A DNA stretch of 36,872 bases. Origin: Thioalkalivibrio sp. Its GTDB lineage: Bacteria; Pseudomonadota; Gammaproteobacteria; SpSt-1174. The position numbers were made by a program, and so were the translations under genes. The stretch lies in assembly GCA_011046015.1 (NCBI GenBank), contig DSBO01000125.1, forward strand, positions 1 to 36,872. The letters are read 5' to 3'. The notes beneath the pieces are model-generated. The model was not told the DNA's origin and ran no database searches. It saw nothing but the letters and a program-made list of their open reading frames with translations. How positions within the stretch are numbered: the stretch's first letter is position 1; each line of letters starts with the position of its first letter. This document shows positions 1,511-36,858 of the stretch, one piece after another.

Positions 1511-3286
1511 TCATTTACTGGTCAGGGGTTTTACCGATCCCGGGATCAGTTCGGCACCGAAGGTCTCTCTCAGCGCCCGAGCCACGGAATCCTCGGCTAT
1601 AGACTGTTCCGCCGCCTGCTGCCGTTCGGCCACGCCGCGTTCCACGGCCTGTGCGGGGGTGTCCTCGACGTGGTCGACGATCTCGATGACGAGCTTCAAC
1701 GGCTCGCCAAAGTGATCCGACAACGCCTTCTCGATACGTTCCTCCACACTCCGGGTGCGCAGGCTCTCCTGTGCCCGCGCGAGCATCAGGGTGACGCGAC
1801 CGCCCTCGATGGCCTTGAGCGAGCAGTTCGTGGCCAGCGACCGGGCCATGGCCCGCAGGCCGAGCTGGTTCACCAGTGTGTGCCAGTTGATGTCGCTGAC
1901 ATCCCGGGCGGATGCCGCCTCGGCCACCGCGGTGGGCTGTGCCGCCATGGGCGCCGCCGGGGCTTCGACCACCGGAGTCGCCGGCACCGGCCGGGCGGCG
2001 GGAGACGGGTCGGGCGCCGGCGGGGTTGTCGGGGCCGGCGGCCTCAGCGCAGGGCCGGATTCAATCGTTTTTTTTTGCGCCGGGCGCGCGGCGCTGACCG
2101 CGGCCAGGGCCTCGTCGCGGGCGTTCGCCGTCTCGCCGGACGGGGCCGCCGGGGCCGCATCTGCGCGTGGACTCGCCCCGCCACCGGCTGCCGCTGACGC
2201 CTCCACGGGACGGAAGGCCTGCATGCGCAGCAACACCATCTCGAACCCGGCCTGCGGGTTCGGGTTGAGCGGCAGGTCGCGCCGGCCCAGCAGCGCGATC
2301 TGGTAGTAGAGCTGCACGTCTTCCGGCGAGAGGCGCTCGGCCAGCGCGCAGATGCGCGCGGCATCGGATTCGACGCTGTCCACCGCCTCCGGCACGATCT
2401 GGGCGAGCGCCACCTGGTGCAGCAGGGCAATCAGGTCATCCAGCACGCCCTCGAAATCCGGCGCCTGCTCGGCCACCCGCGCCACGGCGTCGATGAGGCC
2501 GCGGCCCTCGCCGGCCGCCACGGCATCGAGCAGTCCGAAGACGTGCTCGCGCGAGATCCCGCCGAGCATGTCGCGCACCTCGGCGTCGGTCACCGCCCCG
2601 CCGCCGAAGGCGATGGCCTGGTCCAGCAGGCTCAGCGCATCGCGCATGGAGCCGTCGGCCGCCACCGCGATCTGGTCGAGCGCGGCGGCATCGGCACGGA
2701 TGCCCTCCTGCTCGAGGATGTGTGTGAGGTGGCCGGAGATCATGGTGGCCGGCATGCGCTTCAGGCTGAACTGCAGGCAGCGCGAGAGGATGGTCACGGG
2801 CAGCTTCTGCGGGTCGGTGGTCGCCAGCAGGAACTTCACGTGTGGCGGCGGCTCTTCCAGGGTCTTCAGCAGGGCGTTGAAGCTGTGCCCCGAGAGCATG
2901 TGCACCTCGTCAATGAGGTAGACCTTGAAGCGCCCGCGGGTGGGGGCGTACTGCACGTTGTCCAGCAGCTCGCGGGTGTCCTCCACCTTGGTGCGCGAGG
3001 CGGCATCCACCTCGATGAGATCGACGAAACGGCCCTCGTCGATCTCGCGGCAGGCGGCGCACTCGCCGCAGGGCCGGGCCGTGATGCCCGTCTCGCAGTT
3101 CAGGCACTTGGCGAGGATGCGCGCCACGGTGGTCTTGCCCACCCCACGCGTCCCGGTGAACAGGTAGGCGTGATGCAGGCGATCCTCTTCCAGCGCGTTG
3201 ACCAGCGCACGCAGCACGTGGGTCTGCCCCACCATCTGCTCGAAATTACGCGGGCGCCACTTGCGCGCAAGGACTTGATAACTCAT
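1511..3286 (-). CDS. dnaX: DNA polymerase III subunits gamma/tau
   Basis: MSYQVLARKWRPRNFEQMVGQTHVLRAL...GTRGVGKTTVARILAKCLNC...IDEVHMLS. Start trimmed from 3328 to MSYQ at 3286. Confidence 0.97.
   Translation of the reverse strand: MSYQVLARKWRPRNFEQMVGQTHVLRALVNALEEDRLHHAYLFTGTRGVGKTTVARILAKCLNCETGITARPCGECAACREIDEGRFVDLIEVDAASRTKVEDTRELLDNVQYAPTRGRFKVYLIDEVHMLSGHSFNALLKTLEEPPPHVKFLLATTDPQKLPVTILSRCLQFSLKRMPATMISGHLTHILEQEGIRADAAALDQIAVAADGSMRDALSLLDQAIAFGGGAVTDAEVRDMLGGISREHVFGLLDAVAAGEGRGLIDAVARVAEQAPDFEGVLDDLIALLHQVALAQIVPEAVDSVESDAARICALAERLSPEDVQLYYQIALLGRRDLPLNPNPQAGFEMVLLRMQAFRPVEASAAAGGGASPRADAAPAAPSGETANARDEALAAVSAARPAQKKTIESGPALRPPAPTTPPAPDPSPAARPVPATPVVEAPAAPMAAQPTAVAEAASARDVSDINWHTLVNQLGLRAMARSLATNCSLKAIEGGRVTLMLARAQESLRTRSVEERIEKALSDHFGEPLKLVIEIVDHVEDTPAQAVERGVAERQQAAEQSIAEDSVARALRETFGAELIPGSVKPLTSK
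2061..2077 (-). promoter_or_regulatory. Putative dnaX slippery site (A9) with immediate -1 frame TGA
   Basis: Minus strand reads C-AAAAAAAAA-CGATTGA. Frame 0 is CAA AAA AAA ACG ATT GAA; after a -1 shift it reads AAC GAT TGA. Confidence 0.8.
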
Positions 3287-19198: not shown

Positions 19199-20161
19199 AT
19201 GCACGCCACACTGCCATTACTGAAAGACACCGACTTCCCCGCCATCCGCCGCGGTCGGCTCACCACGCTGCAGGTCAACCTGGGCTATCGCTGCAACCAG
19301 AGCTGCCTGCACTGCCACGTGAACGCGGGACCGAACCGCAAGGAGATGATGACGGCCGAGACCATCGACACCGTCGTCGACTTCCTCCAGGCAGGCGGCA
19401 TAGAGACCCTGGACCTCACCGGTGGTGCACCCGAACTCAATCCGCATTTCCGCGATCTCGTCGCCCGCGCGCGCGCGCTCGGCGTCCACGTGATGGATCG
19501 CTGCAACCTCACCGTCCTGAATGAACCCGGCCAGGAAGACCTGGCGGATTTCCTCGCGGCACATGACGTGGAAGTCATCGCCTCCCTGCCCTGTTACCTC
19601 GAGGAAAACGTCGACGGGCAGCGCGGCCAGGGCGTGTACCACGGCAGCATCGAAGGGCTCAAAAAGCTCAACGCACGCGGCTACGGCCAGGCCGACGGCA
19701 GCCTGGTGCTGGACCTCGTCTACAACCCGACCGGCCCCTTCCTGCCCCCGGCGCAGGCCGCGCTCGAGGCCGACTACAAACGCGAACTCGCCGCACGCTT
19801 CGGCATCGCCTTCAACCGGTTGTTCACGCTCACCAACCTGCCCATCCAGCGCTTCGGCAGTACGCTGGTGAGCAAGGGCCAGTTCGACGACTACATGCAG
19901 CTGCTGCGCGGCGCCTACCGCGCGGAGAACCTCGACGCGGTGATGTGCCGCTCGCTCTTGAGCGTGGACTGGCAGGGTTACGTCTACGACTGCGACTTCA
20001 ACCAGATGCTCGGCCTGCCGCTGGCCGTTGAGGGCAAGGCCAGGCCGAAACTGGCCGACCTCCTCGGCCGCGACCTCGAAGGCAACCCGATCGTGATCGC
20101 CGACCACTGCTACGGCTGCACCGCCGGGCAGGGCTCGTCCTGCGGCGGGGCGTTGAGCTAG
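19199..20161 (+). CDS. arsS: Arsenosugar biosynthesis radical SAM protein ArsS
   Basis: VNLGYRCNQSCLHCHVNAGPNRKEMM radical SAM CxxxCxxC, C-terminal MCRSLLSVDWQGYVYDCDFNQML...DHCYGCTAGQGSSCGGAL (DUF3641-like). Confidence 0.93.
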   Translation: MHATLPLLKDTDFPAIRRGRLTTLQVNLGYRCNQSCLHCHVNAGPNRKEMMTAETIDTVVDFLQAGGIETLDLTGGAPELNPHFRDLVARARALGVHVMDRCNLTVLNEPGQEDLADFLAAHDVEVIASLPCYLEENVDGQRGQGVYHGSIEGLKKLNARGYGQADGSLVLDLVYNPTGPFLPPAQAALEADYKRELAARFGIAFNRLFTLTNLPIQRFGSTLVSKGQFDDYMQLLRGAYRAENLDAVMCRSLLSVDWQGYVYDCDFNQMLGLPLAVEGKARPKLADLLGRDLEGNPIVIADHCYGCTAGQGSSCGGALS

Positions 20162-20169
20162 GTTTTTTT

Positions 20170-20241
20170 GCCACAGAGGGCACAGAGGGCACAGAGCCCA
20201 CAGAGCAGAACCGCTCGAATCACCTCTGTGCCCTCTGTGGC
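20170..20241. repeat. Intergenic inverted-repeat element (CCACAGAG family), copy 2
   Basis: GCCACAGAGGGCACAGAGG (20170-20188) and CCTCTGTGCCCTCTGTGGC (20223-20241): perfect 19-bp arms. Confidence 0.9.
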
Positions 20242-20291
20242 GCAAGAAAGCCTTGCAGCCAGGCAAAAAACAACCGATTCAGGAGACACCG

Positions 20292-21413
20292 ATGGACGTT
20301 CGCCAATCCGTACTCGACCGCTACTCCGAAGGCGCGCAGCAGCGCGTGGAGGCCCTGTGCTGTCCGGTGGACTACGATGCCCGCCTGCTCGAGGCCATCC
20401 CGGACGAGATCCTGGAACGCGACTACGGCTGCGGCGATCCGTCGCGTTACGTGCGCGAGGGCGACACCGTGCTCGACCTCGGCGCCGGCGGCGGCAAGAT
20501 CTGCTACATGGCCGCACAGCTCGTCGGCCCCGGGGGCTTTGTGATCGGCGTGGACATGAACGACGACATGCTCGCCCTCGCCCGCCGTCATCAGGGCGAC
20601 ATGGGAAAGAAGCTCGGCGGCAATCGCGTCGACTTTCGCAAGGGTTACATCCAGGATCTCGCGCTGGACGTCGGCGCGATGGAACGCTTCCTCGCCGAAC
20701 ACCCCGTGAACGATGCCGCGGGCTACACCCGCCTGCACGACTGGCAGGCCGCGCAGCGCCGCGAACAGCCGCTGATCGCCGATGCCTCAGTGGATCTCGT
20801 CATCTCCAACTGCGTGCTCAACCTGGTACCGGACGCGGACAAGACCCAGCTGGTGCGCGAGGTCTTCCGCGTGCTCAGGCCCGGTGGGCGCGTGGCGATC
20901 TCCGACATCGTCAGCGACGAGCCCATCCCCGAACACCTGAAGAACGACCCGGCGCTGTGGAGCGGCTGCATCTCCGGGGCCTTCCAGGAAGAGGCATTCC
21001 TCGAGGCCTTCCGCGAGGCCGGCTTCGTCGCCGTGGCCTACGACAAGTGGGACGCCGCGCCCTGGCAGGTGATCGAGGGCATCGAGTTCCGCTCGGTCAC
21101 GCTCACTGCCACGAAGCCCGAGGCCACCCCCTGCCTCGACTACGGTCATGCCGTGATGTACCGCGGTCCGTTCTCGGAAGTGTCCGACGACGAGGGTCAC
21201 GTCTACCCGCGCGGCGCGCGCATCGCCGTGTGCGAGCGCAGCTACCGGCTCCTCACCGAGGGGCCCTACGCCGACCAGTTCATCGGGTTTGCACCGCGCA
21301 ACCCGGGTGAGCCGCGCACGTTCTGTGCACCGGCCGGCACCCGCCGTCCGGCCGCCGAGACCAAGAGCCCCCTCGCGCCCACCTGCGACAGCGAGGGCAG
21401 CTGCTGTTGCTGA
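20292..21413 (+). CDS. ArsM-like methyltransferase of arsenosugar cluster
   Basis: ALCCPVDYDARLLEAIPDEILERDYGCGDPSRYV, SAM motif VLDLGAGGGKICYMAAQLVG, C-terminal SEGSCCC; directly downstream of arsS. Confidence 0.88.
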   Translation: MDVRQSVLDRYSEGAQQRVEALCCPVDYDARLLEAIPDEILERDYGCGDPSRYVREGDTVLDLGAGGGKICYMAAQLVGPGGFVIGVDMNDDMLALARRHQGDMGKKLGGNRVDFRKGYIQDLALDVGAMERFLAEHPVNDAAGYTRLHDWQAAQRREQPLIADASVDLVISNCVLNLVPDADKTQLVREVFRVLRPGGRVAISDIVSDEPIPEHLKNDPALWSGCISGAFQEEAFLEAFREAGFVAVAYDKWDAAPWQVIEGIEFRSVTLTATKPEATPCLDYGHAVMYRGPFSEVSDDEGHVYPRGARIAVCERSYRLLTEGPYADQFIGFAPRNPGEPRTFCAPAGTRRPAAETKSPLAPTCDSEGSCCC

Positions 21414-22090
21414 GGATCTCGGTCATCGTGCCGGCGCTCAACGAGGCGGCGACGATCGCGGCCACACTCGCGCCGCTGCAGGCCGCGCGTGCGGCCGGTC
21501 ACGAGATCATCGTGGTCGACGGCGGCAGCACGGATGCCACCGTCGACCGTGCCCGTGCGCTGGCCGACCGGGTGATCGTCAGTCCGCCCGGCCGGGCCAC
21601 GCAGATGAACGCGGGGGCACGCATCGCGACCGGCGATATCCTGTGGTTTCTGCATGCCGACACCCTCGCACCCGCCGATGCGATCGATACGCTTTGCGCT
21701 GCACTCGCCGACGGACGCCGCTCCTGGGGCCGCTTCGACGTGCGCCTGTCCGGGAATCGCTGGCCATTTCGCGTGATCGAGCGCGCCATGAACCTGCGCT
21801 CCTGCCTGACGCGCATCGCCACCGGCGACCAGGGCATCTTCGTCACGCGCCAGGCCTTCGCGGCCGTCGTCGGCTATGCCGACATCCCGCTGATGGAAGA
21901 CGTCGAGCTCAGCAAGCGCCTGCGAAAACACACGCCACCGGCCTGCCTCAAGACACGGCTCGTCACCTCCAGCCGGCGCTGGGAACAGAACGGCATCATC
22001 CGCACCGTGCTCCTCATGTGGCGCCTGCGGCTGGCCTACTTCGTCGGCGCCGCTCCCGACGCCCTGGCCGAGCGCTACCGTCGTGGCTGA
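21407..22090 (+). CDS. GT2-type glycosyltransferase, TIGR04283 arsenosugar-associated family
   Basis: ISVIVPALNEAATIAATLAPLQ...IVVDGGSTDATVDRA...WFLHADTLAP; TTG start overlapping the upstream stop. Confidence 0.88.
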   Translation: MLRISVIVPALNEAATIAATLAPLQAARAAGHEIIVVDGGSTDATVDRARALADRVIVSPPGRATQMNAGARIATGDILWFLHADTLAPADAIDTLCAALADGRRSWGRFDVRLSGNRWPFRVIERAMNLRSCLTRIATGDQGIFVTRQAFAAVVGYADIPLMEDVELSKRLRKHTPPACLKTRLVTSSRRWEQNGIIRTVLLMWRLRLAYFVGAAPDALAERYRRG

Positions 22091-22742
22091 CCAGGGCGAT
22101 ACCGCGGTCATCGTCTTCGCCCGCGCCCCCGTGCCGGGCGCCAGCAAGACGCGCCTGATCCCGGCCCTGGGCGCGACGGGTGCGGCCGCACTGCATGGCG
22201 CGATGATCGAGCGTACCCTCCAGACACTGGCCGCGCTGCCGCACGCGTATGACCTGCAGCTCTGGTGCGCGCCGGACACGCAACACCCGCTGTTCGCACG
22301 CCTCGCCCAACCACACCGCACAAGCCTGCACCGCCAATGCGGTGATGACCTGGGCGCACGCATGTATCATGCGCTGAACGCCGCCCTGCACGATCATGCA
22401 CAGGCCATCATCGTCGGCACCGACTGCCCCGGCCTGCTGCAAACCGATATCGAGACCGCACAGGAAGCACTGCGACATGGCGCGGACGCCGTGATCGGGC
22501 CGGCAGCGGATGGTGGTTACTGGCTGCTCGGCCTGCGCAACGTGTCGCCCGGACTCTTCGCCGACATCGCCTGGGGCGGCGACACGGTTTATGCCGACAC
22601 CGTGGCGCGTCTCGCGTCGCTGGACTGGCGCTGGCGGGCCCTGCGCACACTGGCCGACGTGGACCGACCGGAAGACCTCGTCCACGTCCCCGCCGATTGG
22701 CTGGCCGACACCTTGCTTGAAGACACAAGAGAGAACACATGA
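22083..22742 (+). CDS. TIGR04282 / DUF2064 arsenosugar-associated glycosyltransferase
   Basis: VIVFARAPVPGASKTRLIPALG...IIVGTDCPGLLQTDI...GPAADGGYWLLGL; GTG start overlapping the upstream stop. Confidence 0.9.
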   Translation: MADQGDTAVIVFARAPVPGASKTRLIPALGATGAAALHGAMIERTLQTLAALPHAYDLQLWCAPDTQHPLFARLAQPHRTSLHRQCGDDLGARMYHALNAALHDHAQAIIVGTDCPGLLQTDIETAQEALRHGADAVIGPAADGGYWLLGLRNVSPGLFADIAWGGDTVYADTVARLASLDWRWRALRTLADVDRPEDLVHVPADWLADTLLEDTRENT

Positions 22743-24923: not shown

Positions 24924-27878
24924 ATGCCCAGTCGCTTCACCCGCTCACACCTGACGATCGCGCTCCTGCTGGCACTGGGTCTGCTGTTCGCGGGCGTGCT
25001 GCAGATCGCATTCGACTCGCCGGACAGGGTCGAGCGCGCGCAGATGCAGCGCTGGATCGAGGAGATGAAGACCGCCTCCCGCGGCCCCTTCTACCGCATC
25101 CGCTGGTTCTGCAACGATGGCAGCGTACTGCCGCCGGGTGAGTACGTCTGCCGGGAGCGCGGCGGCGGCGTACAGCACGGCGAATGGAACGAACGCACCC
25201 TCGCGATCCGCGCCCAGGGCTACCTGGTCGGCACCCTGCTCGCGGACCTCGACACCGCCGACTACGTCGGCCCCGCGCCGCGCCTGGACGACCTGCGCCA
25301 GATCCTGCTCGAACAGTTCCTGATCGAGAACGACGACGGCTGGGTGTTCCGTCAGGCCCGTTACTACCGCGGGGCCATCCAGGTCGAGGACGAGCGCCGC
25401 ATGGCACGCGAACTGCTGCTTGCCATGGTCGACGATCCCGCCTGGCGCGACCCGTCACGGTACCTGCTGTTGCGCGAGGCGGCCCGCCTGCTGCCGATCG
25501 ACAGCGAGCCCCCGGCCGCGGCCACGGTGCGCCAGCTCGCCATCGACATCGCCGAGCAGGACCCCGGCTTCCAGGACATGCGCGTGAAGCTGCACGGGCT
25601 GCCCGACGCGCGCGACCCCCAGCGCGTACGCGACTACGCCGCCCAACGGGGCCTGCCGCAACTGGCAGACGACTACCGGCGACTGGCCGCCGAACTCGAC
25701 ACCCTCTACGCCCCGCAGACCGCAGTGAACCGGCTCGCCGAGCTCGCCGCCGAGAGCCGCAGCCCACGGGTCAAGTCCCGGCTGCAGGCGGCGATCACTG
25801 GCCTGCGCGGCGCCCGCGAGCTGGAGACCCGCCTGCACCTAGCCGCGGACCACGCCGTGCAATGGCGCAGGCTGTTCATGGCCAGCACGGAACTGGCCGC
25901 GCCTGACCGGCTCACCCTCCTGCAGGCCGGCCTGGCCCTGGAGCAGGAGGCCTACGCCGTCGGCAGCCGGCTGGCAGAGGAAGAGACCCGCGCCGATCGC
26001 CTCACCCGCCTGCGATGGCTGGCGAGCCTCGGCGCCACCCTGCACGCGGCTGGCTTTCTCTCCGATCGCCAGTGGCAGCACCTGGACCTGCACCTCGATG
26101 TGCTGGCACTGACCCCGCAACTCGCCGCCGAGACCTATGCCGGCGAGCTGCGTTACGTCGCCCGGGTGTCGCCGTGGGCGCATCGGGCGCTGGGCTTTCA
26201 CTTCGACCCGACGGTCGAGCGCTGGACCGACATCACCCCGCTTGCCGTGCACTACATCCCCGACCGGCTGCGCGGCAGCCCGCTCCTGACCTATTCCCGC
26301 GTGCTCGACACGCTACTGGAGGACGCCAACCGGCAGATCGGCGTGCGCCACGAACTGTTCGGGCGGGAAGTCGCCGGCGGCCTGCGTGCGCTCAATCCGG
26401 GGCTGCGCCGTGGCGTGCTGCTGATGCCGCCGGCCGATCCCGAGGGCTTTCGCACGGACGGCATCTACCTGCTGCCCTCGACCACGCCCGAGCTGCCGCC
26501 GGTCGCGGGCATCCTCACCCGGGGAGAGGGCAGTTCGCTCTCGCACGTACAGCTGCTCGCGCGCAACCTCGGCATTCCCAACGTGGTGCTCGACGACGCC
26601 CTGCTCCCGTGGATCGAGCCCTATCTGGGCCGGCGCGTCGTGCTCGCCGTGACGCCGCGTGGGCGCGTGCAGATCGCCGCCGACGGCCCCGAGTGGAACG
26701 CCGTCTTCGGTCTCGAGGCCCAGGCGCCCGACGTGGTCATCGTGCCCGACCTGCGCAAGCTCGACCTGCGCAGTACCGGTCTGCGCCCCCTGGGCGAACT
26801 CCGCGCCCGCGATTCCGGCCGCACGGTAGGCCCCAAGGCCGCCAACCTCGGCGAACTGGCCCACCACTACCCGGCGCAGGTCAACCGCGGCCTGGTCGTG
26901 CCCTTCGGCGTGTTCCGCGAGTTTCTCAACCAGCCGATCGCCCCCGGCGGCCCCGCGGCCTACGATTGGCTACGCGCCGAGTACGCCCGGTTGCAGCGCA
27001 TCCTGGACCCTGCGCAGCGTCAGGCCGAGACCCGCCTGATGCTCGAACGCCTGCGCCACTGGATTGTCACCACCGACCCGGGCGACGCCTTTCGCGAGCA
27101 GCTGCACACCGCGCTGGTAGCCAGTTTCGGCAGCGCCGACACCCGCGGTATCTTCGTGCGCAGCGACACCAACGTCGAGGACCTGCCGGGCTTCACCGGC
27201 GCCGGACTCAACCGCACCGTGCCCAACGTGGTCGGCTTCGAGTCCATCGTCCAGGCGATCCAGGCGGTCTGGGCCTCGCCCTTCAGTGAACGCGCCTACG
27301 CCTGGCGCCAGGCGCACATGCGCCAGCCCGAGCACGTCTATCCGGCCGTGCTGCTGCTGGAGACCTTCCCCTCGAACAAGTCCGGCGTGCTGGTCACCGC
27401 CGACATCGAGACGGGCGATCACCGCTGGCTGAGCATCGCGGTGAACGAGGGTGTGGGCGGCGCCGTCGACGGCCAGGCGGCCGAGGAGCTGCGCGTGCAC
27501 CGCGTGACGGGGGAAACGCGCCTGCTCGCCCAAGCCACCGCGCCGCGGCGCACCGAGCCCGCGCCGGGCGGGGGCATGCGCCAGGTCGCCGCCAGCGGCC
27601 GCGGCGAGGTCCTCACCCCCGACGAGATCGAGCAACTGCGCCGCCTGGCCAACGACGTGGAACGGCGCATTCCCATGCCCATCACCGCCCACGACCGGCC
27701 GGCCCCCGCCGACATCGAATTCGGCTTCAACCACGGCCGCCTCGCCCTCTTCCAGATCCGCCCCGTGGTCGACAACCCCCGCGCGCGGCGTAGCCTCTAC
27801 CTCACCGAACTCGACGACCGGGGACTGCAGGGCCCGAAGGTGATGGTGGACCTGACGGAAAGCCCTGGAGACAGATAG
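24924..27878 (+). CDS. Membrane-anchored PEP-synthase/GWD-like dikinase (swivel His domain then ATP-grasp domain)
   Basis: N-terminal TM LTIALLLALGLLFAGVLQIAF; swivel motif GILTRGEGSSLSHVQLLARNLGIPNVV; ATP-grasp motifs GPKAANLGELA...LVVPFGVFREFL, FVRSDTNVEDLPGFTGAGLNRTVPNV, GRLALFQIRPVVDN. Confidence 0.85.
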   Translation: MPSRFTRSHLTIALLLALGLLFAGVLQIAFDSPDRVERAQMQRWIEEMKTASRGPFYRIRWFCNDGSVLPPGEYVCRERGGGVQHGEWNERTLAIRAQGYLVGTLLADLDTADYVGPAPRLDDLRQILLEQFLIENDDGWVFRQARYYRGAIQVEDERRMARELLLAMVDDPAWRDPSRYLLLREAARLLPIDSEPPAAATVRQLAIDIAEQDPGFQDMRVKLHGLPDARDPQRVRDYAAQRGLPQLADDYRRLAAELDTLYAPQTAVNRLAELAAESRSPRVKSRLQAAITGLRGARELETRLHLAADHAVQWRRLFMASTELAAPDRLTLLQAGLALEQEAYAVGSRLAEEETRADRLTRLRWLASLGATLHAAGFLSDRQWQHLDLHLDVLALTPQLAAETYAGELRYVARVSPWAHRALGFHFDPTVERWTDITPLAVHYIPDRLRGSPLLTYSRVLDTLLEDANRQIGVRHELFGREVAGGLRALNPGLRRGVLLMPPADPEGFRTDGIYLLPSTTPELPPVAGILTRGEGSSLSHVQLLARNLGIPNVVLDDALLPWIEPYLGRRVVLAVTPRGRVQIAADGPEWNAVFGLEAQAPDVVIVPDLRKLDLRSTGLRPLGELRARDSGRTVGPKAANLGELAHHYPAQVNRGLVVPFGVFREFLNQPIAPGGPAAYDWLRAEYARLQRILDPAQRQAETRLMLERLRHWIVTTDPGDAFREQLHTALVASFGSADTRGIFVRSDTNVEDLPGFTGAGLNRTVPNVVGFESIVQAIQAVWASPFSERAYAWRQAHMRQPEHVYPAVLLLETFPSNKSGVLVTADIETGDHRWLSIAVNEGVGGAVDGQAAEELRVHRVTGETRLLAQATAPRRTEPAPGGGMRQVAASGRGEVLTPDEIEQLRRLANDVERRIPMPITAHDRPAPADIEFGFNHGRLALFQIRPVVDNPRARRSLYLTELDDRGLQGPKVMVDLTESPGDR

Positions 27879-27942
27879 TGGCCACCGTCAGCCCGGCAAG
27901 GGGCCACGGACAGCCGACCATCCCATGACCTATGATCACCCT

Positions 27943-29232
27943 ATGACCCGACCCGTCCGCCACGCCCTGCCCCGAGTCCTCGTCATCCTTGCGCTGTCGG
28001 TCGCGTCGGCCGTGGCGCTCGGGTACCCGATCGATGCCTACGAGGAGACCGGGATCGGGCGGCTGGAGGGGTATCGGCTGGCGAGCGAGGGAAAGATTAC
28101 GGGGAACTGGCTACCGTCGGGGGCGAAGCTGGGGCGCGACCAGATCCGGCTGCGTCTCACCGACCAGCCGGATTTCGAGATCCCGCCGGCCGACGCCGAA
28201 CTGACCCGGGCCATCGTCGATCTGCTCGGCGAATCCGCCCGCCACACCAGCGTGAGCGTGCTGGACCTGAGCGACCCGCAGGCGCCGGTCTATGCCGAGC
28301 ACAACGGGCGCGCGCTGCGCAATCCTGGCAGCGTGGGCAAGATCATGCTGGTGACGGCGCTGCTGCAGGCGCTGGCCGACCTGCATCCCGACGACATCGA
28401 GGCACGCAAGCGCCTGCTGCGCGAGACGCAGGTCACGGCCGACGCCTTCATCCGCCACGACGATCACGACGTCCCGATCTGGCGTCCCGAGATCAACCGC
28501 ATCGTGCGCCGGCCACTGCGCGAGGGCGATGTGGCCAACCTGTGGACCTACCTGGACTGGACGCTCTCGGCCAGCTCCAACGCCGCGGCCAGCACGGTGA
28601 TGAAGCAGCTCATGCTGATTCGCCACTTCGGCGCGGACTACCCGGTGTCGGCAGACGACGAACTGACCCTGTTCCGCGACATGCCCTACAAGGAGCGCAG
28701 CGCCCTGCTGCTCGACAGCCTGCTGTCACCGCTCGAGCGCAACGGCCTGGACCCGGACCAGCTGCGCCAGGGGGCGTTCTTTACCTACGAGGGCAAGCGA
28801 CGGGTGGGTGGCACCACCAGCACCAGCACGGTACGCGAGCTGGCGCGGCTGCTGGTGCACATGGAAAAAGGGGAACTGGTGGACGCGTGGTCCAGCCGGG
28901 AGCTCAAGCGGCTGCTGTACATGACCCAGCGGCGCATCCGCTACGCGGCCTCACCCGCCCTGAGCGATGCCGCCCTGTACTTCAAGTCGGGCTCGCTCTA
29001 CAAGTGCGACCGCACGCTGGACCCCAACTGCGGCAAGTACGAGGGCAACGTCTACAACCTGATGAACTCGGTGGCCATCGTCGAGTCGCCGGCCGGCGAG
29101 CCACGGATGTTCTACCTGGTGGCGCTCACGTCAAACGTGGTGGGCAAGAACTCGGCGGTCGAGCACCAGACCTTCGCCACCCGGCTGCATCGCCTGCTCA
29201 AAGCCCGGCAGTCCGTACCGGCGTCTCCATGA
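27943..29232 (+). CDS. Exported serine hydrolase of beta-lactamase/PBP fold
   Basis: Signal peptide; NPGSVGKIM (SxxK), SASSNAAAS (SxN), YFKSGSLYKC (KSG). Alternative start at 27925. Confidence 0.85.
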   Translation: MTRPVRHALPRVLVILALSVASAVALGYPIDAYEETGIGRLEGYRLASEGKITGNWLPSGAKLGRDQIRLRLTDQPDFEIPPADAELTRAIVDLLGESARHTSVSVLDLSDPQAPVYAEHNGRALRNPGSVGKIMLVTALLQALADLHPDDIEARKRLLRETQVTADAFIRHDDHDVPIWRPEINRIVRRPLREGDVANLWTYLDWTLSASSNAAASTVMKQLMLIRHFGADYPVSADDELTLFRDMPYKERSALLLDSLLSPLERNGLDPDQLRQGAFFTYEGKRRVGGTTSTSTVRELARLLVHMEKGELVDAWSSRELKRLLYMTQRRIRYAASPALSDAALYFKSGSLYKCDRTLDPNCGKYEGNVYNLMNSVAIVESPAGEPRMFYLVALTSNVVGKNSAVEHQTFATRLHRLLKARQSVPASP

Positions 29233-30091
29233 TGATGCCGTCCAGCTCGACGATGATCTGCTTCAGCCACTCGCCGCCGCTGGGGTTCTGCGCCAGCGCC
29301 ACGGCGATGTAGGTGCGTCCGCCATGCTCGACGATCGCGCTGTCGGCATGCCAGTCGCGCCAGGTGCCGGACTTGCGGTAGATCTGCGCATCCGGCGCAT
29401 CGGCCAGCAGGCCCTGCACGAACTTGTGCTTGATCGCCGGGTCGCCCAGCATGGTCTTCATCTCGCGCGACAGCTCCGGCGACACCAGGCGGCCGGTCTC
29501 CAGCAGGTAATAGAAGCGGGCCACCTGGAAGGCGGTCGCCCCGTGGGAGAGGTTGTGCAGCGGGTCGCGACGGTAGGCCGCACCGCGCCCGTATTCCTTG
29601 CCGACCCAGAGCCCACCGTTGAGGTTCGCATCGTACAGACGATACTTGGGCGAACTCAGCAGATCGTTGATATAGTCACGCCCCACCCGGTGGATCATCT
29701 CGGTGGCGGCGACATTGGAGGACTGGCGGATCATGCGGGTCATCAGCTGGCGTGTCTCGGTATCCAGCTTGAGCCTGCCCTCCTGCACGCGCTCGAAGGC
29801 CGCCAGCAGAATGGCGATCTTCGGCAGGCTGGCGGCGTAGACCATGTCGTTGCCGTTGACGTGGGCGAGACGCGGGCGGTCGCGATCAGTCACGTCGACC
29901 AGGGCCACGGCCAGCTGGTGGGCGCGCACCGCGCCGTCGAGCTTCAGGAGGCCGAGGCGTTCCTCGAGCCGTTTTTGCAGGGCCGGGTCGGCGGCATCCC
30001 GCAAAGAGATGCGATCACCGACCGGAGCCGCGTGTACCGCGGAGAGCAGGCTCAGCGAGAGCCCGAGGACCATCAGCAGTCGCAACAGCAT
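29198..30091 (-). CDS. Exported serine hydrolase, class A beta-lactamase-like
   Basis: Signal peptide MLLRLLMVLGLSLSLLSAVHAA; YAASLPKIAI (SxxK), RQSSNVAAT (SxN), YRKSGTWRDWHADSAIVE (KSG). Confidence 0.9.
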   Translation of the reverse strand: MLLRLLMVLGLSLSLLSAVHAAPVGDRISLRDAADPALQKRLEERLGLLKLDGAVRAHQLAVALVDVTDRDRPRLAHVNGNDMVYAASLPKIAILLAAFERVQEGRLKLDTETRQLMTRMIRQSSNVAATEMIHRVGRDYINDLLSSPKYRLYDANLNGGLWVGKEYGRGAAYRRDPLHNLSHGATAFQVARFYYLLETGRLVSPELSREMKTMLGDPAIKHKFVQGLLADAPDAQIYRKSGTWRDWHADSAIVEHGGRTYIAVALAQNPSGGEWLKQIIVELDGIIMETPVRTAGL

Positions 30092-30197: not shown

Positions 30198-31487
30198 ATG
30201 ATCATGCGTTTCCTGCGCGACACCTGCCTCGTGCGCTGTGTGCTGCTGTTCACGAATTTCCTCCTGATCATCGCCGCGGTCTATCACCTCAAGCCGGCCA
30301 GCCGTTCCATCTTCATCAGCTCGCTGGGCACCGACTACCTGCCGTACGTGTGGATCGCCACCGCGCTCGCGCTCGCGCTCACCATCGGGATCTATCACCG
30401 CCTGATCGCACACTACTCCCGCATCCACGTGGTGCTCGGGAGCTGCACCCTCGTCATTGCCATACTGCTGGCCTTCTACCCGCTGCTCAGCGACAGCGGC
30501 TTCGCCCAGGCCTTCGCCTTCTACATCTTCGTCGACATGGTCAGCGTGATCCTGGTCGAACAGTTCTGGAGCCTCACCAACACCACCTTCAGCACCAGCG
30601 AAGGCAAGCGCTGGTACGGCCTGATCGCCACCGGCGGCCTCGTGGGGGGCATGGTCGGCGGCAGCGCCTCCAGCCTCTGGATCCGCCAGTTCGGGCTGGA
30701 AACCATGGACCTGCTCCTGGTCGCCGCGGGCATCTTCGCCCTGCTCGCGCTCCTCACCCTGCTCATGGGCAAGCTCGGTCTCTACGAGGAAAAGGCCGGG
30801 GTACCCAATCACCGCGACGACTCCACCGGGGACTGGCGCGCCATCCTGCACCACCGCTACCTGCTGCTGATCGCCACGATCCTGCTGCTCGCCCAGATCG
30901 CCGAGCCGATCATCGAGTACCAGTTCATGAAGGTCGTCGAGGCCTCCATCGCCGGACGCGACGAGCGCACCGCCTACCTCGGGGCCTTCTTCAGCGTGAT
31001 GAGCGCGGTCGCCATCGGCATCAACCTGCTGATCACGCCGCTGGTACATCGCTGGCTGGGGGTGCTGGGGGGATTGTTCGCGCAGCCGCTGGCCGTGATG
31101 GCCGGCAGCCTGTGGTACATGTCGCAGGCCACGCTGCAGGCCGGCGCCTTCCTCAAGATCTCCGATCGCGGCCTGTCCTACTCCATCAACCGCGCCTCCA
31201 AGGAACTGCTCTATGTCCCCATCGAGCCGGTCCTGATGTTCCGCGCCAAGGCCTGGATCGACATGTTCGGCTACCGCCTCTTCAAGGTCGCCGGCTCCCT
31301 GCTCATCCTGCTGCTCACCCAATGGCTGCCCTGGACCCTCAGCGCCGCCCAGCTCGGCTGGCTGGTGCTCGGCATCTGCCTGATCTGGATGTTCGCCCTC
31401 ACTCACCTGGGCACCCAGTACCGGGACATCCTCGCCCGCGCCGCCGCGCTAAAGGTCGACGCCATCGGCGCCGGCAGCAGGCATTAA
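30198..31487 (+). CDS. ATP/ADP translocase (NTT)-like / MFS-related polytopic transporter
   Basis: About 12 TM helices; YHLKPASRSIFISSLGTDYLPYVWI, EQFWSLTNTTFSTSEGKRWYGLIATGGLVGGMVGG, SINRASKELLYVPIEPVLMFRAKAWIDMFGYRLFK. Confidence 0.68.
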   Translation: MIMRFLRDTCLVRCVLLFTNFLLIIAAVYHLKPASRSIFISSLGTDYLPYVWIATALALALTIGIYHRLIAHYSRIHVVLGSCTLVIAILLAFYPLLSDSGFAQAFAFYIFVDMVSVILVEQFWSLTNTTFSTSEGKRWYGLIATGGLVGGMVGGSASSLWIRQFGLETMDLLLVAAGIFALLALLTLLMGKLGLYEEKAGVPNHRDDSTGDWRAILHHRYLLLIATILLLAQIAEPIIEYQFMKVVEASIAGRDERTAYLGAFFSVMSAVAIGINLLITPLVHRWLGVLGGLFAQPLAVMAGSLWYMSQATLQAGAFLKISDRGLSYSINRASKELLYVPIEPVLMFRAKAWIDMFGYRLFKVAGSLLILLLTQWLPWTLSAAQLGWLVLGICLIWMFALTHLGTQYRDILARAAALKVDAIGAGSRH

Positions 31488-33963: not shown

Positions 33964-36342
33964 TCAGCCCTCCGGCGCGGCGAACTGGCCGCCGAGCACC
34001 CGGTTTCGTCCGGCGGCCTTGGCGGCGTAGAGCTGCCGGTCAGCCGCCGAGACCAGCTGAGCGACGCTCTCGAAACCGTCGATGGCCATCACGCCGGCGC
34101 TGATCGTCAGGCCGTAACGCTGGAGATACGAGTGCTCGGAGACCGCGCGGCGGATCTTCTCGGCGACCTCGTGGGCCTGGTCGGCCGGGCACTCCGGGCA
34201 GATGAGCAGGAACTCCTCGCCGCCCCAGCGACCGAAGACATCGCTTCGCCGGATGAGCTCTTCAACGAGCGCGGCGAAACGCCTGAGTACCTCGTCACCG
34301 GCCTGGTGGCCGTGGACATCGTTGATCTCCTTGAAGTGATCCAGGTCGAAGAGCACCAGCGACAGATCACGCCCATAACGTCTCGACCGGTCGAACTCCT
34401 CGCTGAGCACGCTATCCAGGTGATGCCGGTTGAAGACGCCCGTGAGCTTGTCAGTGATCGACATCTCCTGCAGCAGCCGGTTCTTTTCCCGCAGCTCCCG
34501 TTCGGCCTGAGCGAGGCTGGCGTTGACCCGCTGGATACGCTGGTTGAGCGCCTGCGTGCGCACGAGGTAGACGGACAGCAACAGGAACAGAAACAGGGCC
34601 GCGAACAGCAGCGGCAGCAGCTTGTTCCACGGAAAGGGTTGCGAGACGCTCAGCCGCACCCAGCGGTTGTAGATCTCGTTGTGCTGTTCGACGCTCATGG
34701 AGGCCAGGGCCTTGTCCATGGCGCTGCGCAACAGCGGCCAGTCGTCGCGCACGGCGATGCCGAGATCGAAGGAGTACGGCGTCTGGCCGGAGATCTTCAG
34801 GTTGGCCAGCCCCTCGGCCTTGATGATGTGGCTCACGGCCGCGAGGTTGTCGATAAAGGCATAGAGTTCGCCACCGGCCAGGTCCTTGAGCCCCGCCAGG
34901 GCGCTGTCGTAGCGCTCCAGCGACAATCCCGGGTAGTAGCGTGAGAGCAGCTCGTCGGAGGCATAGCCACCCACCACCCCGATCACCCGGCCCTCGAGCT
35001 GATTGAAGTTGGAGATATAATCCACGTCGTCGCGGGTCACGATGATCATCGGCGAACGCACGTAGGGCGACGTGAAACTCAGGTACTCGCGCCGGTTGGG
35101 CGTCGATGCCGCGGCCGGCAGCAGATCGATCTCGCGCGCCCGCGCCGCCTCGAGTATCTCCTCCCAGCTCAGTCCCTCCACCAGCTCGAACTCGATATCC
35201 AGTGTTTCGGCGAGGATCTCCAGGTAATCCGAGGCAATGCCCCTGAAGTTCTGCTCGGCGTCGAAAAACTCGAACGGCGGCCAGCCCACCGACTCCACCC
35301 CGAAGCGCACGGTACCGAGCGAATCGAGGAACGCACGTTCCGCATCCGAAAGCTCGAGCCCGGTGTTGCGAGCGGATTCAAACACCAGTCCTGCCGCATC
35401 GCCGCCCCCCGTGTTCAGCAGCTGCAGGCTTTGCAGCCGGGTCAGGATATAGTCGATACGTCCCCGATCGAGACTGCCCAGCTCGGAGGTGTGGCGATCG
35501 ATGAGCGTCTCCATCCCCCGCGCCTCGTTCATCAACGCGGCACGTGACTTGCCCTGCGTGTTGTAGCGTTGGTAAATCAGCTCAACCATCTCGGCCTTGT
35601 GATCCAGCGCATACCGCCAGCCACGCAGCACCGCACGGCGCATGGCCGCCACGCGCTCGGGATGCGCGCTCGCCTCCTGCTGGCTGGTGAACAGCATGTC
35701 GCCATAGAGGCTCAGGCCGTAATGCCGGGGATGAATGACGTTGACCTCGTGCCCCATCTCGCGGAACACGAAGGGCTCGTTGGTCACGTAGATGGAGATG
35801 GCGTCGACGTCGCCGCTGATCAGCTGGCTGACGCGCTCGTCCCAGCCCGTGCGTATTAATCCCTCCCTGAGGATGCCCTGGTCGGCCAGCAGGGCAAGGA
35901 TATCCACGCCGTCGGAGTCGTTCTCGTAGAAGGCGAGGCGACGCCCCACCAGGTCGCGCGGCGTCGTCAGCCCGGAATCGGCCATGGTCATGATTGCATT
36001 GGCCGAGTGCTGCATGATGGCGGCGACGATCACCACCGGCTCGTGATTGGCGTGGTGCAGGAACAGCACGGAGTCCGACACACCGTACTGCGCCTCGCCG
36101 GAGAGCACCTGCTGGATGATGTTGCGCTCGGTCGCTCGCTCCCGCAGCGTGACCGTCAGCCCCTCCTCCGCGAAATAGCCCTGCTCCAGCGCCGCATAAA
36201 AACCTGCGAACTGAAACTGGTGCAGCCACTTGAGCTGAATCACCACCTCTTCATCGGCGGCGGCAGTCAGTGGGCTCGCGACAGCAGCCAGGGCCAGCAA
36301 GATGCAGCCCAGCCAGCAAGAAGACAGGGATCGGCGAGGCAC
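33964..36342 (-). CDS. Diguanylate cyclase with NMT1/THI5-like and SBP_bac_3-like periplasmic sensor domains
   Basis: VIQLKWLHQFQFAGFYAALEQGYFAEEGL (NMT1-like), VRFGVESVGWPPFEFFDAEQNFRGIASDYLEILAE (SBP_bac_3), TM, LTGVFNRHHLD...RRSDVFGRWGGEEFLLI (GGDEF). Start uncertain: GTG 36342 proposed; the ORF Met at 36462 lies in repeats. Confidence 0.88.
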   Translation of the reverse strand: MPRRSLSSCWLGCILLALAAVASPLTAAADEEVVIQLKWLHQFQFAGFYAALEQGYFAEEGLTVTLRERATERNIIQQVLSGEAQYGVSDSVLFLHHANHEPVVIVAAIMQHSANAIMTMADSGLTTPRDLVGRRLAFYENDSDGVDILALLADQGILREGLIRTGWDERVSQLISGDVDAISIYVTNEPFVFREMGHEVNVIHPRHYGLSLYGDMLFTSQQEASAHPERVAAMRRAVLRGWRYALDHKAEMVELIYQRYNTQGKSRAALMNEARGMETLIDRHTSELGSLDRGRIDYILTRLQSLQLLNTGGGDAAGLVFESARNTGLELSDAERAFLDSLGTVRFGVESVGWPPFEFFDAEQNFRGIASDYLEILAETLDIEFELVEGLSWEEILEAARAREIDLLPAAASTPNRREYLSFTSPYVRSPMIIVTRDDVDYISNFNQLEGRVIGVVGGYASDELLSRYYPGLSLERYDSALAGLKDLAGGELYAFIDNLAAVSHIIKAEGLANLKISGQTPYSFDLGIAVRDDWPLLRSAMDKALASMSVEQHNEIYNRWVRLSVSQPFPWNKLLPLLFAALFLFLLLSVYLVRTQALNQRIQRVNASLAQAERELREKNRLLQEMSITDKLTGVFNRHHLDSVLSEEFDRSRRYGRDLSLVLFDLDHFKEINDVHGHQAGDEVLRRFAALVEELIRRSDVFGRWGGEEFLLICPECPADQAHEVAEKIRRAVSEHSYLQRYGLTISAGVMAIDGFESVAQLVSAADRQLYAAKAAGRNRVLGGQFAAPEG

Positions 36343-36414
36343 GTTCAGGGTTCCGATCGAAACATATGCCGCCAGAATAGCAGAAAAACGCCCCAAATCA
36401 CGGCTCACATGCAC

Positions 36415-36858
36415 GAGCGGCGAAAGCCGCGATGCCCATGCTGACCATTGCTGCCACCCCAATCGCGCCTCGCAGCGCTCCTACCAACCCCGCGCTTTAC
36501 CCGTAGGAGCGGCGAAAGCCGCGATGCCCCTGCCCGGCAACGCTGCCCCACCCAATCGCACCTCGCAGCGCTCCTACCCATTCGGTGTCTACCCGTAGGA
36601 GCGGCGAAAGCCGCGATGCCCATGCCGGGCAACGCTGCCACACCCCAATCGCGCCTCGCAGCGCTCCTACCAATCCCGAGCTTTACCCGTAAGCGGCGAA
36701 AGCCGCGATGCCCAGGCCCGGAGGAACTGCCACCCCAATCGCGCCTCGCAGCGCTCCTGCCACTTCAGGGTTTACCCGTAGGAGCGGCGAAAGCCGCGAT
36801 TCGCAGTGGTGCCTGCGCCCGGCGTGATGATCGCGGCTTGCACCGCTACGAACCCAGG
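36415..36858. repeat. REP/BIME-type palindromic array, period about 92 bp
   Basis: GAGCGGCGAAAGCCGCGAT heads at 36415, 36507, 36599, about 36691 and 36782, alternating with inverted AATCGCRCCTCGCAGCGCTCCT; degenerate inverted copy ATCGCGGCTTGCACCGCTAC near 36832. Confidence 0.93.

Follow-up and report, generated by a model that had tools for sequence, protein, structure and literature searches.

Introduction

The plant glucan and phosphoglucan water dikinases, GWD and PWD, carry a swivel domain followed by a C-terminal ATP-grasp domain. In these enzymes the β phosphate is transferred via a histidine (PMC7569903). Across the superfamily, ATP phosphorylates the swivel histidine, the phosphate is passed to a second site, and AMP and Pi are released (PMC4844700, PMC12167813, PMC7569903). 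A GGxT(S/C)HA motif has been described for the swivel (PMC12167813). In HpeHI, CreHI and PpsAB, which act on phenols, one part holds the acceptor domain together with the swivel and the other part holds the ATP-grasp (PMC12167813).

Nucleotide carriers of the NTT/TLC family have been catalogued in free-living bacteria, fusions with HEAT or cNMP domains included, with no known role; an NAD transporter is among those characterised, and one NTT moved no nucleotides in assay (PMC5381601).

Here we describe a locus of Thioalkalivibrio sp. in which genes of these two kinds lie close together. It belongs to a 36,872-nucleotide stretch, contig DSBO01000125.1 of assembly GCA_011046015.1, which we call the window. 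The dikinase of this locus is predicted to work in the periplasm; since the periplasm is normally held to lack ATP, an intact ATP-dependent phosphotransferase needs an energy source there.

Results

A dikinase with the swivel ahead of the ATP-grasp

The ORF check of the window confirms the dikinase gene at 24924-27878 on the plus strand, coding for 984 aa. Its features are as follows.

24924..27878, + strand: dikinase-type phosphotransferase, predicted exported, 984 aa (ORF; Pfam PEP-utilizers then PPDK_N; 76 full-length relatives; AlphaFold model)
24942..24992, + strand: N-terminal hydrophobic segment, aa 7-23, putative signal peptide or anchor (same position in 75/76 relatives)
25035..26348, + strand: N-terminal helical domain, about aa 38-475 (outside Pfam families; secondary structure of the model)
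25110..25151, + strand: Cys63 and Cys76, candidate disulfide flanking a β hairpin (76/76 conserved)
26382..26723, + strand: His swivel domain, about aa 487-600, motif (S/N)(S/A)LSHVQLLARNLGIPNVV (Pfam PF00391; PEP synthase swivel alignment)
26544..26546, + strand: His541, predicted phospho-carrier (76/76 conserved; aligns with the swivel His of PDB 8a8e)
26769..27818, + strand: C-terminal ATP-grasp, about aa 616-965, with K638, R746, D930, E932, Q944 and R946 (PPDK_N; residues in 76/76; Foldseek to rifampin phosphotransferase, RPH)

The N-terminal domain bears an invariant motif, GPF...W(F/Y)C.DG...C...GGG.QHG, and matches no Pfam family in the window protein or in 18 aligned relatives. It is followed by the swivel (PEP-utilizers, PF00391, at aa 516-555; 26.3 bits against a cut-off of 23.1) and then by the ATP-grasp (PPDK_N at aa 634-954; 106 bits against a cut-off of 27, E=2.5e-30), while a Pfam scan down to E=1 finds no PEP-binding barrel. 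A new N-terminal domain, a swivel and an ATP-grasp make an unusual order for a dikinase, and this order holds up. The best sequence matches in the PDB, PEP synthases and RPH, lie at the ATP-grasp region. A preliminary description of the gene had called it a dikinase with the swivel in front of the ATP-grasp and no PEP barrel: the Pfam matches and the conserved residues bear out all three points, and every sequence motif quoted there is present in the ORF. A standard PEP synthase with misread order is ruled out by the Pfam order and the absent barrel; a separate PEP-synthase-like protein is encoded on contig 100 of the window's genome.

A scan of named genomes yielded 80 dikinase loci. Its seeds were the peptides DDGW(I/V)(F/W)R and NLGIPNVV, so conservation at these positions partly reflects how the loci were selected; His541 and the ATP-grasp residues fall outside them. 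Loci occur in the Gammaproteobacteria (Halothiobacillus, Guyparkeria, Thioalkalivibrio, Hydrocarboniphaga, Sinimarinibacterium), in the Betaproteobacteria (Rhodocyclaceae, Thiobacillus), and in Myxococcota, Desulfobacterota and Nitrospirota. Full-length relatives from these Gamma- and Betaproteobacteria, Myxococcota, Desulfobacterota and Nitrospirota are 36-67% identical; within the window's class, genomes G003, G047, G011 and G027 hold full-length relatives of the same architecture. Full-length relatives with identity up to 67% rule out a chance ORF or a pseudogene.

Export signal and cysteine content

In 75 of the 76 dikinase relatives, a strongly hydrophobic N-terminal segment precedes the conserved GPF motif, and an AxA-type cleavage site follows this segment in 54 of the 76, individual starts being uncertain because start codons were set by rule. 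The window dikinase may stay anchored, as its own cleavage site is only weak; its residues 7-23 form a helix in the AlphaFold model. None of the 76 bodies shows a second membrane span, the highest 19-residue hydropathy mean being 1.57.

Cys63 and Cys76 are present in all 76 relatives and constitute the only recurrent cysteine columns: the mature body has no further cysteine in 57 of the 76. On average, mature bodies contain 0.25 Cys per 100 aa, five-fold less than the 1.30 of 12 cytoplasmic PEP synthase paralogues, from which a comparable hydrophobic N-terminal segment is absent. A cytoplasmic protein with a wrong start codon is ruled out by the 75/76 export segments and the cysteine depletion. 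Altogether, the dikinase is almost certainly exported and predicted to work outside the cytoplasm. The N-terminal transmembrane segment and periplasmic body proposed in the preliminary description are thus matched by a hydrophobic segment that all but one of the 76 relatives keep as an export signal and by the depletion of cysteine, and the Cys pair noted there is fully conserved, a candidate disulfide.

Catalytic residues and structure

Residues H541, K638, R746, D930, E932, Q944 and R946 do not vary in any of the 76 full-length relatives and align with their counterparts in PEP synthase and its paralogues. Because these residues are intact, the chemistry of the superfamily, with phosphorylation of the swivel histidine, transfer to a second site and release of AMP and Pi, is probably retained.

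The AlphaFold2 model, built from 69 sequences (pLDDT 91.4, pTM 0.89), replaces an earlier one from 4 sequences (pTM 0.41). Its N-terminal domain is helical and has a small β hairpin where the Cys pair lies; the swivel and then the ATP-grasp follow. In Foldseek searches, RPH and PEP synthase match over the ATP-grasp, with TM scores of 0.86-0.89 when normalised to the isolated RPH domain 5hv6. Significant matches among the PDB and viral models are all ATP-grasp or dikinase structures, and none of the best Foldseek matches in the same sets falls on the N-terminal domain alone, which has no solved relative there. Cytoplasmic topology, lost catalytic residues or a standard PEP synthase architecture, named beforehand as outcomes contrary to the proposal, were not found.

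Partner genes and their co-inheritance

The dikinase is one of four genes that make up a module in the window, the other three being:

27925..29232, + strand: hyd, serine enzyme of the β-lactamase/DD-peptidase fold, predicted exported (PF13354; directly downstream of the dikinase)
29198..30091, - strand: bla2, second serine enzyme of the same fold, predicted exported (PF13354, E=2.6e-23; convergent with hyd)
30198..31487, + strand: NTT/TLC-family nucleotide carrier, divergent from bla2 (PF03219; profile matches to 9j3n and 9j3j)

The preliminary description covered 24924-27878 alone and missed these conserved partners, the nucleotide carrier included.

We searched with profiles 276 genomes of the window's class, each of 90% completeness or more except for the genome of the window itself. 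The dikinase N-terminal domain is found in 27 of them. hyd occurs in all 27 and in G239, where the gene sits at a contig edge; bla2 occurs in 25 of the 27, and again in G239. The window-type carrier (>550 bits) is present in 22 of the 276 genomes, all among the 27, and never without the dikinase. Fisher tests of co-occurrence with the dikinase give p values from 4e-28 to 1e-36, with the reservation that kin genomes are not independent. At the level of families, 20 have the dikinase, 17 of which have all four genes. Of the 56 loci whose downstream flank reaches 4.8 kb or more, 47 likewise have all four, arranged in several orders.

Linkage alone does not account for the co-occurrence, since the carrier of several genomes (G183, G065, G120, G162) sits on a different contig or at a distance of tens of kb. 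No NTT is found at 1e-10 in the dikinase genomes G195 and G212, nor at 1e-5 in the genome of locus L054. Neighbour clustering finds no other conserved genes around the module across the locus set; it was run on non-overlapping ORFs, the six-frame version being spoiled by antisense ORFs in GC-rich DNA.

The four genes thus appear to be inherited almost all-or-none. The module also appears to spread laterally, because same-genus G001 and same-family G002 are without it and because its Nitrospirota and Desulfobacterota members nest inside proteobacterial sequences. Phage or plasmid cargo was considered and rejected, the N-terminal domain having no match on phages or plasmids; so was a defence system, as none of the four proteins has a PADLOC match.

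Several copies deviate. At locus L005 (genome G011) a TAG stop breaks the dikinase frame in the interval 3084-3112, only a fragment of the carrier is present and no bla2 is detected; either decay of the module or an assembly fault may explain this. Genome G162 has, besides a standard module, a more distant paralogue of the N-terminal domain (G162:C179:6057-7532, E=1.7e-59) in an open frame of 1416 aa, adjoining a weak bla2 match. Locus L097, titled 'MAG: Klebsiella pneumoniae', has the complete module in a divergent form; this MAG is probably mislabelled or mixed.

Elsewhere in the window, positions 19199-22742 hold an arsenosugar biosynthesis cluster: ArsS radical SAM (TIGR04167, 461 bits), an ArsM-like methyltransferase, and TIGR04283 and TIGR04282 glycosyltransferases. 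On the minus strand, 33964-36462 encodes an 832-aa protein with a substrate-binding domain of the amino-acid ABC-transporter type followed by a GGDEF diguanylate cyclase domain.

Two serine enzymes

Both hyd (SxxK139, S217xN219, K354SG; 68 relatives) and bla2 (S88xxK91, S124xN126, K240SG) keep the class A β-lactamase motifs SxxK, SxN and K(S/T)G, conserved at 95% or more. Export signals are seen in 61 of 68 hyd and in 36 of 55 bla2 sequences, start sites being less sure for the latter. Neither enzyme passes the NCBIfam bla_class_A cut-off, bla2 scoring 12.2 of 200 bits, and no conserved deacylating Glu lies between SxN and KSG of bla2. The two look like peptidase- or transferase-type rather than drug-degrading enzymes. 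The dikinase and hyd genes, 46 nt apart in the window, overlap by 4 nt in L004, L005 and L006, which points to translational coupling.

The nucleotide carrier

The carrier scores 59.4 bits against PF03219 (TLC; cut-off 21). Its profile matches the Chlamydia-type ADP,ATP carrier 9j3n (E=5e-22) and Arabidopsis NTT1 9j3j (E=4e-14), and Pfam also gives a weak MFS_1 match. In NTT1, we take four charged residues, K155, E245, E385 and K527, to be essential. Of these, E245, E385 and K527 correspond to D113, E240 and K363 of the carrier, which are conserved, and K155 falls in a gap.

In the tree, window-type carriers form one clade (support 99/100), and the Myxococcota loci have a separate NTT clade (98/100) at the same place. 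Recruitment of these two large clades on separate occasions is likely, short of proof because the deep forks of the tree are unresolved. The carrier of Marinobacter L096 groups with an unlinked NTT (100/99, one MAG). Loci L061, L067, L114 and L078 encode longer NTT proteins, with HEAT (L067) and cyclic-nucleotide (L078) domains where scanned.

At five Myxococcota loci (L044, L045, L046, L047, L052; about 1-6 kb, minus strand), an extra NTT-like protein of about 1050 aa is encoded divergently upstream of the dikinase; where scanned (L044), it has a C-terminal cyclic-nucleotide-binding domain. The dikinase can therefore have NTT-type proteins on both sides.

Discussion

We propose that the module comprises a dikinase of the envelope, acting in the periplasm. 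ATP bound in its C-terminal ATP-grasp would phosphorylate His541 of the swivel, from which the phosphate would pass to an acceptor bound by the new N-terminal domain; the products would be AMP, Pi and the phosphorylated acceptor. The neighbouring NTT-family carrier would feed it, swapping cytoplasmic ATP for the spent nucleotide, and the two exported serine enzymes would act on the same envelope substrate. To the computed export signal, intact catalytic residues, fold and four-gene co-inheritance, this adds a presumed catalysis, an export of ATP and an acceptor of some nature. Taken as a whole, we give the proposal an even chance.

As the dikinase is tied to an NTT carrier and its ATP must come from the cytoplasm, exchange through the carrier would be the simplest source, an assumption that could fall either way. 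That the substrate is linked to peptidoglycan or to a glycan is a doubtful guess from the serine enzymes. A literature search for a periplasmic dikinase, or for NTTs supplying exported enzymes, found nothing direct. Only tentatively, we suggest an undescribed system of envelope energisation in free-living bacteria, in which a dedicated NTT would export ATP into the periplasm and a secreted dikinase would phosphorylate an envelope polymer or metabolite alongside two secreted acyl-serine enzymes.

The carrier could instead work inward, taking up nucleotides or another metabolite, with the periplasmic dikinase running in reverse or consuming external ATP as a scavenger. The co-occurrence of dikinase and carrier fits this too. 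The NTTs characterised from intracellular bacteria import nucleotides and energy (PMC5381601), and bacterial and protozoan PPDK works towards ATP formation (PMC5371819). However, reverse synthesis would depend on extracellular AMP, Pi and a high-energy phosphoester, many hosts are cultured and free-living (Guyparkeria and Hydrocarboniphaga, for instance), and the PEP-type barrel is absent; we consider inward transport unlikely. We judge cell-wall recycling improbable to the same degree. There the NTT-like protein would be a permease for another anionic wall fragment, activated by the dikinase in the periplasm for the serine enzymes. SxxK, SxN and KSG of the DD-peptidase/β-lactamase fold are indeed intact in both enzymes, the carrier does match MFS_1 weakly, and K155 of NTT1 has no counterpart in it; yet its significant matches are ADP/ATP carriers, and what the Myxococcota loci have instead is a separate NTT lineage, not a general MFS permease.

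It is very unlikely that the module inactivates an antibiotic or toxin, as an exported RPH relative with two β-lactamase-like enzymes might suggest. The closest solved ATP-grasp is that of RPH and both neighbours are Beta-lactamase2 in Pfam, but the RPH model gives 91.6 of 999 bits over the ATP-grasp only, neither serine enzyme reaches the bla_class_A cut-off, bla2 is without the conserved deacylating Glu, plasmids and phages yield no match, and a resistance enzyme that depends on ATP would operate more easily in the cytoplasm. We give as little credence to an exported protein that is no longer an ATP enzyme and keeps its swivel and ATP-grasp folds for binding or regulation: free ATP is generally held to be scarce in the periplasm, which would favour it, but all 76 relatives keep the seven catalytic positions unchanged.

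For the envelope dikinase fed through an NTT carrier, co-inheritance with a nucleotide carrier of the ATP/ADP family offers a concrete and testable answer to the question of its energy source. Some of the numerous NTT carriers without a role in free-living bacteria would also gain one, and the co-inheritance points to an envelope modification in several phyla, whose acceptor the sequence does not name. Altogether, the module suggests that the cell envelope has a dedicated route for using ATP.

Among known systems, PpsA (PEP synthase, or pyruvate,water dikinase) has ATP-grasp and His-swivel chemistry in common with the window dikinase, and their catalytic residues align. In contrast to PpsA, which follows the order ATP-grasp, swivel, barrel, the window dikinase has its swivel before the ATP-grasp, is without the PEP/pyruvate barrel, is predicted to be exported and carries a new N-terminal domain; neither the GGxT(S/C)HA motif nor the regulatory Thr of that motif is present in its swivel. 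It scores 80 of 739.75 bits with the PEP_synth equivalog model. RPH, the best structural match of the ATP-grasp, is likewise without a PEP barrel, whereas its ATP-grasp comes first; the 91.6-bit match to NCBIfam RIF_Ptrans_rph is confined to aa 630-949, and we know of no RPH that is exported.

As for HpeHI, CreHI and PpsAB, a fusion of H with I would give acceptor domain, swivel and ATP-grasp as in the window dikinase, a comparison of order alone; they differ in being two proteins with phenol substrates, and no export of them is reported. By Pfam and PDB profile matches, the partner carrier belongs to the NTT/TLC proteins, set apart from those known by its own well-supported clade tied to this dikinase.

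Plant GWD and PWD, plastid enzymes unlike this one, share the swivel-before-C-terminal-ATP-grasp order, and are likened to it by order alone. No N-terminal carbohydrate-binding (CBM) domain of their kind is found by Pfam in the window protein or the 18 aligned relatives. The GWD-like reading of the preliminary description stands for domain order and is not supported for kinship: no GWD or carbohydrate-binding domain is detected, and the ATP-grasp is nearest to RPH and PEP synthase in sequence and structure. From its sequence, that the protein would work like a dikinase stands; that it is a GWD is not supported.
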